Positions 4,286 to 12,531 of a stretch of DNA of 12,878 nt are shown here, in pieces. Within the stretch, counting starts at the first letter, position 1, and the number at the start of each line of letters is the position of its first letter. The position numbers were made by a program, and so were the translations under genes. Under the pieces are notes generated by a model. It made no database searches. It saw only the letters and a list, made by a program, of their open reading frames with translations, and was not told the DNA's origin. The stretch is from JBDREC01 sp043820105 [NCBI: Pseudomonadota bacterium] (GTDB lineage: Bacteria; Bdellovibrionota_F; JAHFAK01): positions 1 to 12,878 of the forward strand of contig JBDREC010000002.1 of NCBI GenBank assembly GCA_043820105.1, written 5' to 3'.

Positions 4286-4467
4286 TTAGATTCTTATTAA
4301 TTCAAAAGCTAGTTTTGTTGCTCTTGCTTCTGATATTTTTTTCAATGCTTTTCCCTTCTGATGCTTATTAAAGAGCATTTTCGCTTTTCTTCTTTTCCCA
4401 CATGCACACTGCCTTATGAAAAGATAGGCTAGGTGATCCATTAGGAATTTGTTATTTCCAACAAGTG
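4286..4467 (-). pseudogene. 3' fragment of a second copy of the small cationic protein gene
   Basis: The minus strand encodes the C-terminal 57 residues of a protein homologous to the one at 12562-12858. It begins GNNKFLMDHLAYLFIR, continues through CGKRRKAK and ends SEARATKL...LIRI with a TAA at 4286-4288. By hand count 34 of 57 residues are identical to the intact copy. The homology stops abruptly at the left arm of the inverted-repeat element at 4468, and the first ~40 codons are missing. The retained part has no internal stop, so the truncation may be recent or the divergence older than the break. Confidence 0.8.
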
Positions 4468-4616
4468 GGGCCAGGCCTTGACATTCTACAGCAAAGCTAA
4501 CAAATTAAATGGCGAATACAATAACAGACTGAAATCATTGGAACATTGGGCAACGGTAGAATTGTCTTATTTTCAGGGCACTTATTCAATTGCTGTCGAA
4601 TGTCAAGGCCTGGCCC
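4468..4616. mobile_element. MITE-like element with 27-bp REP-type inverted repeats
   Basis: The left arm (4468-4494) begins GGGCCAGGCCTTGACATTC. The right arm (4590-4616) is its reverse complement with one mismatch in 27 bases. The arms are variants of the REP-like motif at 153 and 9928. The 95-base interior has no recognised gene, although one plus-strand frame is open through it (with GEYNNRL and LEHWATVELSYF). No target-site duplication is evident. The left arm abuts the truncated cationic gene, so the element or its insertion probably caused that break. Such bipartite REP structures are typically moved by a RAYT transposase acting in trans; that is an inference. Confidence 0.75.
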
Positions 4617-4759
4617 TTTATTTTTAAAGTATTATGGGGATCAGACACAATATTAGTTAATAGCTATGTTATGGATTCATTTTTTTTGAGTGGAGATAAC
4701 TCCAATGGGACAACTGTTGAATATATCATTTTAGAAATGTATTAATAGGACAAAATATT

Positions 4760-4909
4760 ATGAATAAACTTTCAATAATGATTATCATTTTATCAATTTC
4801 ACTTAATATGTTTGCTTCTTCCAAATACTCAGTTACCAAAGTCATCGATGGTGACACAATCGAATGCACAGATGGCAATATCAACTTTCGAGTCCGCTTG
4901 GCTGGCTAA
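4760..4909 (+). pseudogene. truncated secreted thermonuclease (SNase-like)
   Basis: A 49-codon frame starts at ATG 4760 with AGGA nine bases upstream. It encodes a signal peptide (MNKLSIMIIILSISLNMFAS) and then KVIDGDTIECTDG...FRVRLAG, the exact opening of the staphylococcal nuclease fold: VIDGDT carries a calcium-binding aspartate and RVRLAG the first active-site arginine. In intact homologues the next residues are I/V-D-(A/C/T)-PE, but here TAA follows LAG directly. The other catalytic residues (a Glu and a second Arg) and the OB-fold core are missing, and no remainder was found downstream. The break coincides with the palindrome at 4908-4926. The product would be inactive. Confidence 0.8.
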
Positions 4910-4973: not shown

Positions 4974-5057
4974 AACATTTCATTTGATCTTGCAAAATAG
5001 GTAAATTTCTAAAATAATATTTTTATTAAATTAAAAATAGATAGATTGAGATTTGAA

Positions 5058-6104
5058 ATGAAAAAGAATCAAATTGTTCCCAACAACACTTTTACTGAAT
5101 TTCTTCTTTATAAATCACCTAATGGCAATGTAAAAGTTGAAATATTTTTAAAGGATGAAAATGTTTGGTTAACTCAGGATAAAATTGCTCAGCTTTTTGG
5201 TGTACAAAGACCAGCTATTACCAAGCATCTTAAAAACATATTTGAAAGTGGTGAATTGCATGAAAAAATGGTTAGTTCCATTTTGGAACTTACCACAAAG
5301 CATGGTGCTATTAAAGGAAAAACTCAAAAAAAGCCAGTTAAGTTTTACAACCTAGATGCAATCCTATCTGTTGGTTATCGTGTTAATTCCAAGCAAGCAA
5401 CTATGTTTCGAATATGGGCAACAGAGCGTTTAAAAGAATACATTATCAAAGGCTTTACTATGGATGATGAGCGCTTAAAAAATCCTAATAATATTTTTGG
5501 TAAAGATTATTTTGAAGAGCAGCTGGAAAGAATTAGAGACATCAGGTCTAGTGAAAGAAGGTTTTATCAAAAAATTACTGATATTTATTCTCAGTGCAGT
5601 AGTGATTATTCCAAAGACAGCGAAGAGACAAAGAAGTTTTTTGCAACTGTGCAAAATAAATTACATTGGGCAATCAGCGGTCAAACGGCTGCTGAAATTA
5701 TAGCAGATAGAGCCAGTAGTAAAAAGCAGAATATGGGACTTACTTCTTGGAAAAATGCTCCTTCAGGAAATATTAGAAAATCAGATGTAGCTATTGCTAA
5801 AAATTATTTAGATGAAAATGAATTAGAAAGTCTTAATCTCATTGTTACAATGTATCTTGATTATGCTGAATTGCAGGCAAAAAAGCGAATTGTAATGACA
5901 ATGAAGGATTGGGTCTCTAAACTTGATGCATTCTTAAGATTTAATGAACAAGATATTTTAAAAAATCTGGGAAAAGTAAATAGCGAAATAGCTAAAAAGT
6001 TTGCTGAAGAAGAGTATGAAAGATATAGAGTGATTTCTGACAAACTCTATGAAAGCGATTTTGATAAAGAAATTAAGAAAATTACAAAGAAAGAGAAGAA
6101 ATAA
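5058..6104 (+). CDS. rhuM: RhuM family protein
   Basis: A 348-residue full-length RhuM protein. The N-terminal third carries a winged-helix/HTH-like segment (LTQDKIAQLFGVQRPAITKH, about residues 38-57) and the family signature FYNLDAILSVGYRVNS, then FRIWATERLKEYIIKGF, then MDDERLKN. The C-terminal half has the second conserved block: LHWAISGQTAAEI, NMGLTSWK, IRKSDVAIAKNYL, LIVTMYLDYAE and WVSKLDAFLRFNE. The name comes from an ORF of Salmonella pathogenicity island 3. Members are scattered on islands and prophages, and their biochemical role is not established to my knowledge. ATG 5058 is chosen over TTG 5046: a GAG eight bases upstream is the best ribosome site. The gene stands alone, between transposon debris and the DnaA-like gene. 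Confidence 0.9.
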   Translation: MKKNQIVPNNTFTEFLLYKSPNGNVKVEIFLKDENVWLTQDKIAQLFGVQRPAITKHLKNIFESGELHEKMVSSILELTTKHGAIKGKTQKKPVKFYNLDAILSVGYRVNSKQATMFRIWATERLKEYIIKGFTMDDERLKNPNNIFGKDYFEEQLERIRDIRSSERRFYQKITDIYSQCSSDYSKDSEETKKFFATVQNKLHWAISGQTAAEIIADRASSKKQNMGLTSWKNAPSGNIRKSDVAIAKNYLDENELESLNLIVTMYLDYAELQAKKRIVMTMKDWVSKLDAFLRFNEQDILKNLGKVNSEIAKKFAEEEYERYRVISDKLYESDFDKEIKKITKKEKK

Positions 6105-6165
6105 GTTAATTTATTCTTAAATTGATGCGGTACTTTAGTTGGCTTTTAATATGACAGGATATATT

Positions 6166-6264
6166 TTGTCCATAAATTTATGCTTTAAAAAGTTAATATC
6201 TACTGAAGACGATTACTTTCATATAAATTAATATATTTTATTTTCAAGTCAAAAACTGTCCACA
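6166..6264 (+). promoter_or_regulatory. two weak DnaA-box-like sites upstream of the DnaA paralogue
   Basis: TTGTCCATA (6166-6174) and CTGTCCACA (6256-6264) each match TTATCCACA at seven of nine positions. An A+T-only run lies between them (around 6223-6244). The sites precede the DnaA-like gene by about 45 and 135 bases. With only two mismatched sites this is suggestive of DnaA control at most and does not make an origin. Confidence 0.25.
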
Positions 6265-6309
6265 GCATAATATATATTGCCCCATTGTTCATAATTACTG
6301 GAGACAAAG

Positions 6310-7275
6310 ATGGGACTTTGGGAAAAGATGCAAGGTAGTCTTAAGCAAGAGATTGGGGCTGTATATTATGATCAGTGGGTGAGGCCACTTGAACTAATAA
6401 AAGAGGGTGATGGTGAGATTGAGCTGGGTACTTTTAATATTAATATTAGCAAGTTTATTAGTGAGCATTATGTTCCTTTATTTAAAGCAGTTGCAAAAAA
6501 AGAATATAAGAAGATAATTAATTTCAGGATTAATGCTGAAAGCAAAGATATGTATGGAGATGTTTTTGTAAAGACAGGGCAAGAAGATATTGATATTAGC
6601 ATATGTCCTAATTTTAATTTTGATAATTTTATTGTAGCACACAAAAACCAGAAGTTTATAAGTTGTCTTAAGAAGGTTTGTTTAGTAAAAGAGGTTGTTT
6701 GTGTACCTATTATTATTGCAGCAAAAAGCGGGCTTGGAAAGACTCATTTGCTTCATGCTATTGCTAATGAGATTAAGGCTAACATGCCTAGGGCCAATAT
6801 TACTTTTTTATCTTTTGAGACTTATATAGATAATTTTGATAATTTAAATATGCCTGTTGATAAGAAGGGTAGGAATATTTTATTGCTAGATAATATGGAT
6901 AATTTTTGCAGGATGCATTTGTTTGAAAAGGATAATTTAGCTGAGCATAAGAAGTTTTTTGCTACATTTGATAGGGTATTTATTGCAAGTACTGCCTCAA
7001 AGGATAACCTAGCTGATCAACTCAATAAACATTTTCATGATTTTAAGCTTTATGAAATATTCAAGCTTGATTTTAATTCCAGGCTCAAATTTTTAAGGCA
7101 GCGTTTTGATAGGCATGGTCTTTTAGTAAAGGATAGTGATGTCGAGTTTTTGGCAAGGATGCTTGATAAGGATTTGAGTTATCTTGAGTCTACAGTATTA
7201 AGGCTAAAGGCAATTAGCAGTTTAAGTAAAAAAGCAGTTGATAAGGATTTGATAAGACGAGTTGTGCGGTTTTAG
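6310..7275 (+). CDS. DnaA paralogue lacking DNA-binding domain IV
   Basis: A 321-residue protein. Residues 1-66 resemble DnaA domain I (LWEKMQGSL...YYDQWVRPLELI...FISEHYVPLF), which binds helicase and partners. A short linker leads to the AAA+ domain at about 103-321: FDNFIVAHKN, Walker A AKSGLGKTHLL (K144, T145; the usual first Gly is A138), Walker B LLLDN (D194; the second acid is N195) and sensor I FIAST. The box VII arginine finger position, SRF in DnaA, reads KHF (H241). The sensor 2 arginine of VRELE is replaced in LSYLE (S290). The protein ends there, without the domain IV helix-turn-helix that reads DnaA boxes. It is longer than Hda, which has only the AAA+ part. ATP may bind, but hydrolysis and oligomer sensing look impaired. 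A regulator of DnaA or of a helicase loader is plausible. GGAG at 6300-6303 sets the start. Confidence 0.85.
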   Translation: MGLWEKMQGSLKQEIGAVYYDQWVRPLELIKEGDGEIELGTFNINISKFISEHYVPLFKAVAKKEYKKIINFRINAESKDMYGDVFVKTGQEDIDISICPNFNFDNFIVAHKNQKFISCLKKVCLVKEVVCVPIIIAAKSGLGKTHLLHAIANEIKANMPRANITFLSFETYIDNFDNLNMPVDKKGRNILLLDNMDNFCRMHLFEKDNLAEHKKFFATFDRVFIASTASKDNLADQLNKHFHDFKLYEIFKLDFNSRLKFLRQRFDRHGLLVKDSDVEFLARMLDKDLSYLESTVLRLKAISSLSKKAVDKDLIRRVVRF

Positions 7276-7285
7276 CCTAAATGGA

Positions 7286-7552
7286 TCAATTAAAATTCAA
7301 ATCCCTTTCAACTCCCAAACCACCAGGCCCTTTCAAAGCCTCAAGTTCATCTAGTGAAAAATATCCCCATTCATTTTCAAAGCCATGGACTAGGCCATAA
7401 AAGATTCTGGTTTCTGGATCATATTCTGTTGCGTACCAGGTCCAATTAGCCCAGGTAGTGAAGAATTTGCAGATGATTGAGGGATTGGGATTGTTTTCTT
7501 GTGAGCCGGTTTCTTGGAATTTTTTGATTAGGTCTTTTGTTAGTAGTTTCAT
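7286..7552 (-). CDS. DUF2958 domain protein, copy B
   Basis: An 88-residue intact DUF2958 protein convergent with the DnaA-like gene, with only 10 bases between the two stops. Compared with copy A it has D7 for E, Q13 for K, S25 for K, TTWANW for TPWLNW, and a changed C-terminus (RDLNFN). The core NWTWYATEYDP, RIFYGLVHG and EWGYFSL segments are unchanged. The Shine-Dalgarno AGGAG (complement of 7559-7563) lies six bases before the ATG and matches the other copies in place and sequence. The substitutions are scattered and the frame intact, which argues that each copy has stayed functional since duplication. Confidence 0.9.
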   Translation of the reverse strand: MKLLTKDLIKKFQETGSQENNPNPSIICKFFTTWANWTWYATEYDPETRIFYGLVHGFENEWGYFSLDELEALKGPGGLGVERDLNFN

Positions 7553-7737: not shown

Positions 7738-8724
7738 ATGAATAAAGTTAAATGCACTTATTTTCTGATATTAATTATGCTTACTTCCTGTCAGGCTTTC
7801 AAGCATACTCCTAAACCATCAAACAATGAAGAATGGCCCAGGATAATAAGCATGGGTGCAGAATTTGAGGAATTTATTAAACTATCTAGAGGTTTGGAGC
7901 CTGAATCTAAAGTGAGATTGTTTAGATCAATGTTTACTGATAAATATCCAGATGTTTATGACAGCTTGGTTTTTGAAAGATATCTTGTTAAGGATTATGC
8001 TAAGGAAAAGCAGGAAAGGCTTGATAGGTATGTTCCCAGGCTTGACCGAATTTCGACGAGGATGGAACCAATATTCAAAGAACTTGCTGTGATCTTGCCG
8101 GAAAATATGCAGGAGTTTAAAAAGCTATTTCCAAGCGCTGATTTTAGGTATTATATTTATGTTATGCCATCTTTAAAGTTTAACGGCAAGGTTGGTTTTT
8201 TAAAGGACGGATCAACTGTCATTGCTTTTGGGGTGGATAGGCTGCTAAGTAAAGCAGATCTTAATGTGCTTGTAAGTCATGAACTCTTTCATGCTTTTCA
8301 TATTCAAAATGCTCAGATTATGGATGAGTGGATAAAGGGTGATTTTACTTATGCACATTATATGTGGCTTGAGGGGATGGCAGTTTATGCAAGTGGCTTA
8401 TTGAATCCAAAAAAGAATGATGATGTTTTATTAGATAGTAAGGAGTTGTCTTTAAATTGTCAGAAGCATGCCAGGGAATATATTATAAAATTTAGAGAAG
8501 TATCAGCTAAAAGTTTTTCTGATCCTGAGTATTTGGATGTTTTTTCCATGTGGTTTGGAGGCAAAGAAACTAATTCCGATATGCCAGCAAGAGCTGCCTA
8601 TTGTGTGGGCTTAAATATTGTAAGAGATATTGCAAAGGAGCATGATTTTAATGACATGCTAAAATGGAAGTTTGATTATGTCACAGGGATTGTTGAGAAG
8701 AAAATGAATGAGGCTAGTCAATAG
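7738..8724 (+). CDS. lipoprotein, putative zinc metallopeptidase
   Basis: A 328-residue predicted lipoprotein. A 17-residue hydrophobic signal ends in the lipobox LTSC with C18 as the lipidated residue, so the mature protein should be anchored to a membrane facing the periplasm or outside. Residues 181-185 are HELFH, the HExxH zinc site, in a helix continuing AFHIQ. About 27 residues later WLEGMAVYA supplies E212, the spacing and context of the third zinc ligand in gluzincin-type peptidases. The N-terminal 100 residues are charged and helical without a known domain. It is therefore probably an active peptidase of unknown substrate, similar in motif to DUF2268-like putative Zn proteases. The ATG at 7738 follows GGGAAGA by seven bases. 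Confidence 0.8.
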   Translation: MNKVKCTYFLILIMLTSCQAFKHTPKPSNNEEWPRIISMGAEFEEFIKLSRGLEPESKVRLFRSMFTDKYPDVYDSLVFERYLVKDYAKEKQERLDRYVPRLDRISTRMEPIFKELAVILPENMQEFKKLFPSADFRYYIYVMPSLKFNGKVGFLKDGSTVIAFGVDRLLSKADLNVLVSHELFHAFHIQNAQIMDEWIKGDFTYAHYMWLEGMAVYASGLLNPKKNDDVLLDSKELSLNCQKHAREYIIKFREVSAKSFSDPEYLDVFSMWFGGKETNSDMPARAAYCVGLNIVRDIAKEHDFNDMLKWKFDYVTGIVEKKMNEASQ

Positions 8725-9912: not shown

Positions 9913-9950
9913 GGGTCAGGCCTCACCGGGTCAGGCCTTGACAATCTACA
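9913..9950 (+). repeat. REP-like motif, copy 2 with a partial direct repeat
   Basis: A partial motif, GGGTCAGGCCT (9913-9923), is followed by the complete one at 9928-9950, both preceded by ACC. The complete motif is identical over 23 bases to the one at 153-175 and lies at the same distance (43 bases) from the DUF2958 stop codon. The tandem head points to local duplication or repeated insertion. Confidence 0.75.
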
Positions 9951-9970
9951 AAAAATACAATTCTTATAAC

Positions 9971-10237
9971 TCAATAATAAGTTAAGTCCCTCTCTACCAT
10001 CAATCCTCCCGGCCCTCTCAATGCCTCAAGTTCATCCAGACTAAAATACCCCCATTCTTTTTCATGGCCATGGACTAGGCCATAAAAGATTCTGGTTTCT
10101 GGATCATACTCTATTGCATACCAAATCCAGTTAGCCCAGGTAGTGAAGAATTTGCAGATGATTGAGGGATTGGGATTGTTTTCTTGTGAGCCGGTTTCTT
10201 TGAATTTTTGGATTAGTTCTTTTGTTAGTAGTTTCAT
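9971..10237 (-). CDS. DUF2958 domain protein, copy C
   Basis: An 88-residue intact DUF2958 protein. It shares SIICKFFTTWANW with copy B but has its own changes at conserved aromatic/polar sites: NWIWYAIEY where A and B have NWTWYATEY, plus VHGHEKEW and GGLMVERDLTYY. The 3' flank, down to the REP-like motif, is almost identical to that of the pseudogene at 196, so these two are the closest pair by flank. The Shine-Dalgarno AGGAG (complement of 10244-10248) precedes the ATG by six bases. Its leader hairpin is only partly kept (10271-10289). Confidence 0.9.
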   Translation of the reverse strand: MKLLTKELIQKFKETGSQENNPNPSIICKFFTTWANWIWYAIEYDPETRIFYGLVHGHEKEWGYFSLDELEALRGPGGLMVERDLTYY

Positions 10238-10895: not shown

Positions 10896-11507
10896 ATGCA
10901 AGGTGCTGTAAATAAAATTATAAATAGAATATATGGTAATGGCAGGGGTTGGTGTTTTACTCCAGGGAATTTTAGTGATTTGGGTACTAGTGAAGTTGTT
11001 AGAAAAGCTTTATCTCGTTTAGAGAAACAAGGTTTAATTCGTAGGCTTGCGCATGGAATTTATGATTATCCTCAAAGGCATATAAAACTAGGTGTTTTGC
11101 CACCTGATATTCAAAAAGTTGCTAAAGCTATATCTGATAAATATAAAATACAAATTCAAGTTAGTGGCGCATATGCTGCTAATCTAATTGGAATTTCAAA
11201 ACATGTGCCAGGTAAAATTGTTTATCTTACAGATGGTAGATCAATGAAATATAAAATAGGAAATTTAGAGCTGATTTTTAAAAGGACTACTCCTAAAAAT
11301 ATGAAAAAAGCTGGTAGTATATCAGGAATTGTTATAGCTGCTTTGCGCTTTATTGGTAAGGATAATGTTAATGAACGGATAATAAATATACTTAAGAATA
11401 ATTTATCAGATGAAGATAAGAAAAGGTTGAAACTTGATGCTAGTTTGGCTCCTGTTTGGATATCAAAAATAATTAATGATAAGATTTATGGTGGTCTTCA
11501 TGAATAG
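10896..11507 (+). CDS. AbiEi-like antitoxin (DUF6088 family)
   Basis: A 203-residue protein, the antitoxin half of an AbiE-type (type IV) toxin-antitoxin pair. The N-terminal ~60 residues are a winged helix: GRGWCFTPGNFSDLG, the recognition part VVRKALSRLEKQG, and the wing LIRRLAHGIYDYP, a signature of this group. The C-terminal part (about 70-200) fits the antitoxin domain that counters toxicity and helps DNA binding, with SGAYAANLIGIS, KIVYLTDGRS and LKLDASLAPVWI. AAGGA at 10884-10888, seven bases upstream, sets the ATG. The gene overlaps the toxin start by eight bases in ATGAATAG. It probably represses the promoter at 10841-10876. Confidence 0.9.
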   Translation: MQGAVNKIINRIYGNGRGWCFTPGNFSDLGTSEVVRKALSRLEKQGLIRRLAHGIYDYPQRHIKLGVLPPDIQKVAKAISDKYKIQIQVSGAYAANLIGISKHVPGKIVYLTDGRSMKYKIGNLELIFKRTTPKNMKKAGSISGIVIAALRFIGKDNVNERIINILKNNLSDEDKKRLKLDASLAPVWISKIINDKIYGGLHE

Positions 11508-12531
11508 TTTTTTGAGTTATCCTGATAAAGAAAAGAGAACTTATTATAATCAAGTGTCGGCACTAAAAGGTTTTCCTGCTGTCATTATTGAAAAGGATTT
11601 TTGGGTTTGTTGGGTTCTTAATCAACTTTTTAGAATTGAAGGTTTAAATAATCATCTGCTTTTTAAGGGGGGTACATCTTTATCCAAGGTTTATAATATA
11701 ATCAAAAGATTTTCAGAGGATATTGATTTGACCCTGGATAAAGCCTATTTAGGTTTTGTTGGGGACAATGACCCCGTTAACATGGTGAGTAATAAAAAAG
11801 TTAACAAAAAGATAGAGGAGTTAGGGCTTGCTTGTAAAGATTTTGTAGAAAGCAAATTAATAATAATGCTCGATAATATATTCAAAAAGTCTATAGAAAG
11901 TCATAATTCATGGAAATTGGAAATAGACTCTACTGATCCTGACGGGCAAACAATTGTTTTTCATTATCCTAGTGTATTTGGAAAGCCTTTAAGTTATGTA
12001 AGACAGAGTATAAAGATTGAAGTTGGGGCTAGGGGAGATATTTGGCCATGCTCTATGCATATAATATCAACTTATTTAAAAGAAATGATTCCAGAGGGTT
12101 TTATAGATGATTCAGTTAAAATTAAAGTTTTAAATGTTGAAAGGACTTTTTGGGAAAAAGCCACTATACTGCATATGTTTGGAAATTATCCAAAAAGCAA
12201 AGGTTTTCCAAGCAGGCAATCAAGGCACTATTATGATTTTTATTGTTTATTAAAATCAGAGGCAAAAGCCAAAGCTTTTGAAAATATGGACTTGTTAAAA
12301 AGTGTTGCGAAGCATAAGTCTATTTATTATAGAGCAGCTTGGGCAAAATATCAAGATGCCAGCAATGGGAATTTAAAATTAATACCTGATGATATTATTT
12401 TGCAGGCAGTTGAGCATGATTATCAAAAAATGCAAGAAATGTTTTTTGAAGAACCTCCATCTTTTAATAGTATTTTAGAAAAATTAAGGGAAGCAGAAGA
12501 AGATCTTAACAGACAATCTTTATTCAAATGA
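11500..12531 (+). CDS. AbiEii-like nucleotidyltransferase toxin
   Basis: A 344-residue AbiEii-family nucleotidyltransferase. Visible motifs are EKDFWVCWVL near residue 31, the nucleotidyltransferase core LFKGGTSLSK (G57-G58-T59-S60) followed by the metal-binding SEDIDL (D74, D76), IKIEVGARGD (K172, E174), and ERTFWEKATILH (214-225), then RHYYDFY. Related toxins such as AbiEii and MenA/MenT transfer nucleotides; MenT toxins modify tRNA acceptor ends. The set is complete, so the enzyme should be active. I choose ATG 11500 over ATG 11476 because GGTGG lies six bases before it and it gives the usual short translational overlap with the antitoxin. In Lactococcus this pair aborts phage infection. 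A similar defence or element-stabilising role is inferred. Confidence 0.92.
   Translation: MNSFLSYPDKEKRTYYNQVSALKGFPAVIIEKDFWVCWVLNQLFRIEGLNNHLLFKGGTSLSKVYNIIKRFSEDIDLTLDKAYLGFVGDNDPVNMVSNKKVNKKIEELGLACKDFVESKLIIMLDNIFKKSIESHNSWKLEIDSTDPDGQTIVFHYPSVFGKPLSYVRQSIKIEVGARGDIWPCSMHIISTYLKEMIPEGFIDDSVKIKVLNVERTFWEKATILHMFGNYPKSKGFPSRQSRHYYDFYCLLKSEAKAKAFENMDLLKSVAKHKSIYYRAAWAKYQDASNGNLKLIPDDIILQAVEHDYQKMQEMFFEEPPSFNSILEKLREAEEDLNRQSLFK

Follow-up and report, generated by a model that had tools for sequence, protein, structure and literature searches.

The analysed DNA, hereafter the window, was a stretch of 12,878 nucleotides with a GC content of 31%. It contained a DnaA-like gene located between a RhuM-family gene and a convergent DUF2958 gene. 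The features of this gene and of its immediate surroundings are given below, with kept and replaced residues numbered as in the DnaA-like protein and the DnaA residues at replaced positions numbered as in E. coli DnaA.

5046..6104, + strand: RhuM-family gene, upstream neighbour of the DnaA-like gene (Pfam; match to PADLOC PDC-S05)
6105..6309, + strand: upstream intergenic region, 26% GC, with DnaA-box-like sites at chance level
6310..7275, + strand: gene for a DnaA-family protein of 321 aa with domains I and III only (Pfam, NCBIfam, alignment)
6310..6537, + strand: domain I, residues 1–76, alpha-alpha-beta-beta-alpha-alpha-beta (Pfam DnaA_N, predicted fold)
6538..6594, + strand: short linker, residues 77–95, replacing domain II (low model confidence over most of it)
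6595..7272, + strand: AAA+ domain III with lid, residues 96–321, reaching the final codon before the stop (fold match, alignment)
6721..6744, + strand: Walker A, residues 138–145, AKSGLGKT (K144/T145), kept (alignment)
6877..6894, + strand: Walker B, residues 190–195, ILLLDN, with D194 kept and N195 as the second acid (alignment)
7015..7035, + strand: box VII/arginine-finger segment, residues 236–242, with R281 replaced by Q237 and R285 by H241 (alignment)
7177..7179, + strand: sensor 2 codon, with R334 replaced by S290 (alignment)
7286..7552, − strand: DUF2958 gene, downstream and convergent, one of three intact copies (Pfam, repeat comparison)

The DnaA-like frame opened with an ATG, with a GGAG located 6 nt ahead of it, and the chance of an open frame of 321 codons at the base composition of the window was ~4.5e-12. 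The Pfam family DnaA_N (PF11638) matched residues 3–62 (8.5e-7, 29.1 bits against a cut-off of 24.6) and Bac_DnaA (PF00308) matched residues 101–178 (7.5e-13, 49.4 bits against a cut-off of 23), while no Pfam match to the DnaA C-terminal family was found. The NCBIfam DnaA model, TIGR00362, was aligned to the protein over model positions 1–335 of 437 and at none beyond. In the alignment with DnaAs, the C-terminus was located past the lid helices, within a few residues of the end of E. coli Hda. Domain II was reduced to a linker of ~20 residues, most of which was modelled with low confidence. A PDB sequence search at E 0.001 gave DnaA sequences only, five distinct ones, the best at 9.5e-17. The first-pass annotation had described a DnaA domain I, a Walker A motif and an AAA+ layout ending after the lid, and Pfam, NCBIfam and the predicted folds agree with this description. 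By family profiles and models, the protein was confirmed as a DnaA homologue with domains I and III and without domain IV.

The AlphaFold model of the whole protein, based on an alignment of six sequences, had a mean pLDDT of 75.7 and a pTM of 0.60. Comparison of the predicted structure with DnaA and Hda agreed with the earlier description. The best fold match was DnaA domain III (8btg_B), with a Z-score of 19.4 and an r.m.s.d. of 2.6 Å over 215 residues, and T. maritima DnaA gave a Z-score of 19.1. Shewanella Hda (3bos) gave a Z-score of 16.1 with an r.m.s.d. of 5.5 Å, level with many other AAA+ proteins; the fold lists of the whole model were filled with AAA+ proteins of every kind, so that little can be read into ranks below the DnaA rows. 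When domain I was modelled separately (pLDDT 79.2), its best match was 4tps, the DnaA domain I with SirA, at 1.2 Å over 72 columns (TM 0.72/0.80). Two matches passed E 0.001, both of them chains of 4tps, and other DnaA N-terminal domains came next; the helicase loader DciA (8a3v, E 0.028) was among the weaker fold matches. The models thus support both the domain I and the AAA+ folds, and the alignments behind them include DnaA relatives, so that the DnaA-like fold depends partly on the sequence match.

Functional residues were compared across 15 DnaA rows and six Hda-type rows, using E. coli DnaA numbering. Four of the Hda-type rows were annotated as hda, and the Aeromonas and partial Azospirillum rows were chosen by similarity. 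Residues K178, T179 and D235 were kept, and so was W6 of domain I, which is W in 12 of the 15 DnaAs. Seven positions were invariant in the 15 DnaAs, and all seven were replaced in the DnaA-like protein: D236, the second Walker B acid, by N195; K243 by N209; D269 of sensor 1 by T228; R281 of box VII by Q237; R285, the arginine finger, by H241; L290 by K246; and R334 of sensor 2 by S290. The loss of the arginine finger, the sensor 2 arginine and the second Walker B acid, noticed at first from the sequence, was therefore borne out by the residue table. In addition, R227, present in 13/15 DnaAs, was replaced by K, and the single-strand DNA residues V211 and R245 were replaced by D and A, respectively, at positions that are both variable among DnaAs. 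In domain I, the E21 position, variable among the compared DnaAs, was Y, and the F46 position, hydrophobic in 14/15 DnaAs, was N. According to the accessible text of PMC5742627, R285 of E. coli DnaA contacts the ATP of the neighbouring DnaA; R281, K243, R227 and L290 form domain III contacts; R334 is involved in ATP hydrolysis; V211 and R245 bind the unwound strand; and E21 and F46 are involved in binding DiaA and DnaB.

As the first-pass annotation had pointed out, the DnaA-like protein differs from Hda in keeping domain I (Pfam, fold match to 4tps). Its best-scoring NCBIfam family was TIGR00362 DnaA, with 110.1 bits against a curated cut-off of 343.9, whereas TIGR03420 Hda gave 57.1 bits against a curated cut-off of 194.8. 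In a domain III tree of 22 rows, the branch of the DnaA-like protein had a length of 3.24 changes per column, and the six Hda-type proteins formed a clade that excluded it with a support of 100/99. The protein was placed next to the Hda side with a support of 67/84, a position neither established nor rejected. On these alignments, it is best described as a DnaA-family paralogue that has diverged deeply and lies outside the sampled Hda clade.

It is very improbable that the protein is an Hda equivalent, that is, a clamp-bound AAA+ protein making DnaA hydrolyse ATP (RIDA). The end past the lid and the shortened Walker A-to-B stretch are shared with Hda, the second Walker B acid is also absent in three of the six Hda-type rows, and the tree position next to the Hda side points the same way. 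However, the arginine finger R285, replaced by H241 here, was kept in 6/6 Hda-type rows, where most other positions were variable, and with this residue lost, Hda-type stimulation of the ATPase of DnaA is not expected. With what we take to be the clamp-motif pattern, no Hda-type N-terminal motif was found in the protein, only a loose QEDIDI at residues 91–96 in the linker. Hda itself has an N-terminal motif for binding the sliding clamp, as described in the accessible part of PMC5448010. The Hda clade that excludes the protein also stands against an equivalent, as does the score of domain III alone, which was 84.7 bits with TIGR00362 DnaA and 57.7 bits with the Hda model.

A profile of 19 DnaA rows was used to look for domain IV, and none was found in the six frames of the window, where the best score was 2.1 bits. 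The E. coli DnaA control scored 126.6 bits, though it is itself among the 19 rows of the profile. Among sequences outside the profile, five viral-contig DnaAs scored 22.8–110.7 bits, the lowest one being cut by the contig end, and six Planctomycetota frames scored 48.4–113.2 bits. Domain IV remnants, named earlier as a sign of a truncated pseudogene, were thus sought downstream and across the window, and none was found. Furthermore, identity to DnaAs was ~19–31% among the matches listed, whereas a truncated DnaA of a sampled lineage should stay alike over most of its length. A recent truncation of dnaA is therefore disfavoured by the lack of a domain IV remnant, the extreme divergence and the many functional residues replaced.

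The DUF2958 gene bears on a possible loss of domain IV. Its intact copies were located at 1052–1315, 7286–7552 and 9971–10237, all on the − strand, with 85–86% protein identity to the first, and a broken copy was located at 153–416. The copies lie in repeated blocks, whose likeness stops at or close to the stop codon of the gene in the intact copies and continues ~45 bp further when the copies at 153 and 9928 are compared. The copies punctuate the accessory genes in a cassette-like manner. When the DUF2958 alignment was searched against the species genomes, 12 loci of mixed phyla were found, with a best identity of 52%. A truncated, signal-peptide-bearing frame at 4759–4908, which we take to belong to a nuclease-like family, stops by eye after ~50 codons.

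Insertion of a DUF2958 block could have removed domain IV, which makes the strongest rival a decaying relic: a dnaA-like gene deprived of its 3' part by the arrival of this multi-copy unit next to it, with a frame that is open by chance. The stop of the DnaA-like frame and that of the DUF2958 gene at 7286–7552 are separated by 10 bp, decay is possible because broken genes lie nearby (the DUF2958 copy at 153–416 and the nuclease-like frame), and many functional residues have been replaced. We nevertheless regard a relic as unlikely. No domain IV was present beyond the DUF2958 unit or elsewhere in the window, and the protein stops at the domain III boundary, like Hda. The frame is fully open at 31% GC despite its long branch, both domains are still predicted as folded, and the residues were lost all along the AAA+ domain.

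The upstream neighbour was indeed a RhuM gene, as first read: it lies directly upstream on the + strand by Pfam and PADLOC. Further downstream, an AbiEi (DUF6088)/AbiEii toxin-antitoxin pair was located at 10896–12531 (Pfam, PADLOC). AbiEii was ~41% identical to the best alphaproteobacterial plasmid copies among the matches listed, with one other record in the 60–80% band; for RhuM and the amidohydrolase, the best plasmid relatives among the matches listed were 53% and 29% identical, respectively. Judged by the RhuM and AbiE family matches, the neighbourhood is of the defence type. The gene at 7738–8724 encodes a lipoprotein-like putative zinc metalloprotease (DUF2268). The codon preference of the DnaA-like gene was 0.66 for AAG, 0.61 for GAG and 0.73 for AGG; the corresponding values of 0.50, 0.40 and 0.50 in the gene at 7738–8724 were nearest to it when compared with the RhuM, AbiE and transport genes. 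A repeated GGGTCAGGCCTTGACA-type element with variants was located at 148–180, 4463–4495, 4590–4616 and 9923–9955, and in one case two copies were inverted relative to each other, at a distance of 95 nt and with 96% complementarity. Judged from its sequence, it resembles a REP-type palindrome. The Pfam matches of 20 of the 22 listed frames included no replication initiator, integrase or plasmid family, the other two frames being DUF2958 copies, and the other frames of at least 60 aa in the window had no Pfam match of weight.

Two further explanations draw on this setting. The protein might be a replication accessory of a mobile element, using domain I and the AAA+ core to bring in or place the replicative helicase for an initiator that the element encodes, without itself binding DNA. 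The accessory genes around it would fit, as would the DciA fold match of domain I and weak PHROGs similarity to a phage clamp loader (E 0.0016) and two DnaC-like families (phrog_50, E 0.0027; phrog_3277, E 0.21). We consider this improbable, as the PHROGs matches are weak and confined to the P-loop region, the F46-type helicase contact is lost, and the listed frames contained no initiator, integrase or plasmid family. A role outside replication altogether, for example in a defence or stress module that uses the protein as a nucleotide-binding scaffold or as a co-factor, is equally doubtful. The loss of 7/7 tested DnaA-invariant replication residues speaks for such a role together with the defence-type neighbours; the protein itself had a sole, weak PADLOC match, to mad8 in the P-loop (E 0.0046). 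Against it, domain I was kept with a DnaA-type fold, and the roles known for this domain belong to replication.

The 205 bp upstream of the gene contained two DnaA-box-like sites with one mismatch, a number reached by 83 of 1000 shuffles, and 26 such sites were present across the window where 21.0 were expected. The weak upstream sites, offered earlier as support for a role in replication, are therefore at chance level.

Close relatives were searched for in the species genomes with six peptide patterns, a scan that sees close relatives only; 68 stretches matched and none encoded a relative. The same kind of scan of IMG/VR viral contigs matched two stretches, again with no relative. By tblastn, 40 plasmid and 35 phage records were found, all below 60% identity, and identity was 20.1–26.0% among the matches listed (20 plasmid and 20 phage). 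These matches are read as ordinary DnaAs, and domain IV was confirmed by sequence in six that were aligned. A distant viral scan with a DnaA alignment gave 131 stretches and five loci, all five with a domain IV match, one of which was weak (22.8 bits) in a locus cut by the contig end. Three closely alike DnaA proteins with domain IV were located on IMG/VR contigs (L037–L039), and a further one (L040) had domain IV and no evident domain I.

A census of DnaA genes covered 418 genomes of six phyla, the phyla being named after the titles of the centre-locus records; Pseudomonadota, Bdellovibrionota and Chlamydiota were among the many phyla that lay outside it. A match was found in 61/61 genomes of Campylobacterota, 148/148 of Bacteroidota (frames checked among the matches listed), 53/59 of Planctomycetota, 46/50 of Acidobacteriota, 46/51 of Chloroflexota and 43/49 of Patescibacteria. 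Frames of at least 400 aa were counted as full length by length alone. Among shorter frames, the seven of Planctomycetota all had domain IV (one by eye, six by profile), as did the one of Chloroflexota, and the two of Patescibacteria ran into contig ends. In Campylobacterota, one short frame had domain IV, and the other, a weak 240-aa frame with stops beside a transposase, reads as an IS21-type helper ATPase. Whole DnaA frames without domain IV therefore numbered zero in these 418 genomes, among the matches listed. The search for orthologues with the same domain loss, suggested earlier, gave no close relative among species genomes, IMG/VR contigs, plasmids or phages, and the rarity of a domain I and III architecture has been tested in part, over the six phyla covered. 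The opposite loss did occur: three whole Planctomycetota frames (L047, L049 and L050) had domains III and IV with no domain I match to the query. Four further III and IV frames without such a match (L035, L048, L051 and L052) were cut by contig ends. The Planctomycetota III and IV frames were mostly second copies in their genomes, and those of L049 and L050 were very divergent.

Our preferred reading, held tentatively, is that an old DnaA-family paralogue turned into a pseudo-initiator, which modulates DnaA or the replication of an element by means of its domain I and of an AAA+ core that binds nucleotide but is inert. Alignments and models supply the domain I fold, the AAA+ core with its Walker A motif, the lack of a DNA-binding domain and the loss of residues for hydrolysis and contact. 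Such a protein would bind ATP or ADP without hydrolysing it, would be unable to bind DnaA boxes or melt DNA, and would act by protein contacts. Domain I, in which W6 is retained, could pair with DnaA or bind one of the partner proteins of domain I. The nucleotide-bearing face might also be offered to the arginine finger of DnaA, terminating a growing DnaA filament at that point. Entry as a poisoned subunit would have to use this ATP-bearing face, because the domain III contacts R281, R285, K243 and L290 are lost. Replication initiation in the host or in an incoming element would be lowered or retuned as a result, and the protein may be a brake or a decoy. YfdR, which is encoded by an E. coli prophage and acts on DnaA by way of F46 in its domain I according to the accessible text of PMC4776307, offers by analogy a precedent for an accessory protein acting on DnaA domain I.

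The replaced F46 and E21 positions count against a pseudo-initiator. Competition for the helicase is possible but weakened, since the F46 position is an asparagine where 14/15 DnaAs are hydrophobic. It is unlikely, to much the same degree as a role outside replication, that the protein represents a third architecture in the DnaA family, with domain I, a catalytically dead AAA+ core and no domain IV, which from a defence-type accessory region acts as a brake by capping or poisoning DnaA filaments, thereby blocking DnaA-dependent invaders or throttling the host chromosome. Of the arguments for the original idea of a replication-modulating accessory factor, those from domain architecture, replaced residues and the difference from Hda stand, and that from the DnaA boxes falls.

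To our knowledge, the control of DnaA is unexplained in most bacteria beyond the best-studied groups, and Hda is the only known DnaA relative without domain IV. A literature search, mostly without subscription journals, found among the matches listed no DnaA relative with domain I but without domain IV. By alignments and models, the protein is a variant of the DnaA/Hda kind with domain I, an apparently inert AAA+ core and no domain IV; that it modulates replication is a reasonable but unproven interpretation. If true, it would be a natural probe of how far domain I and filament ends carry the control of initiation, and would reveal a new route by which accessory DNA influences replication. As a single example, it is a lead and not a discovery.

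We know of no evidence that YfdR and SirA are DnaA homologues. The DnaA-like protein resembles them in possibly tuning initiation through DnaA domain I, YfdR coming from a prophage gene (accessible parts of PMC4776307 and PMC5448010), and differs in carrying a domain I of its own. The DnaC/IstB helicase loaders belong to the same AAA+ class and have weak P-loop similarity to it; however, they match far more weakly than DnaA (IstB, 14.9 bits), and the matches stop short of domain I. Hda and HdaA share the DnaA-type AAA+ domain ending past the lid and the shortened Walker A-to-B stretch, whereas the DnaA-like protein has domain I, no arginine finger and no N-terminal clamp motif. With DnaA it shares the domain I fold with its tryptophan and the AAA+ domain III with Walker A and lid, and it departs from DnaA in having no domain IV, hardly any domain II and replacements at the seven invariant residues.
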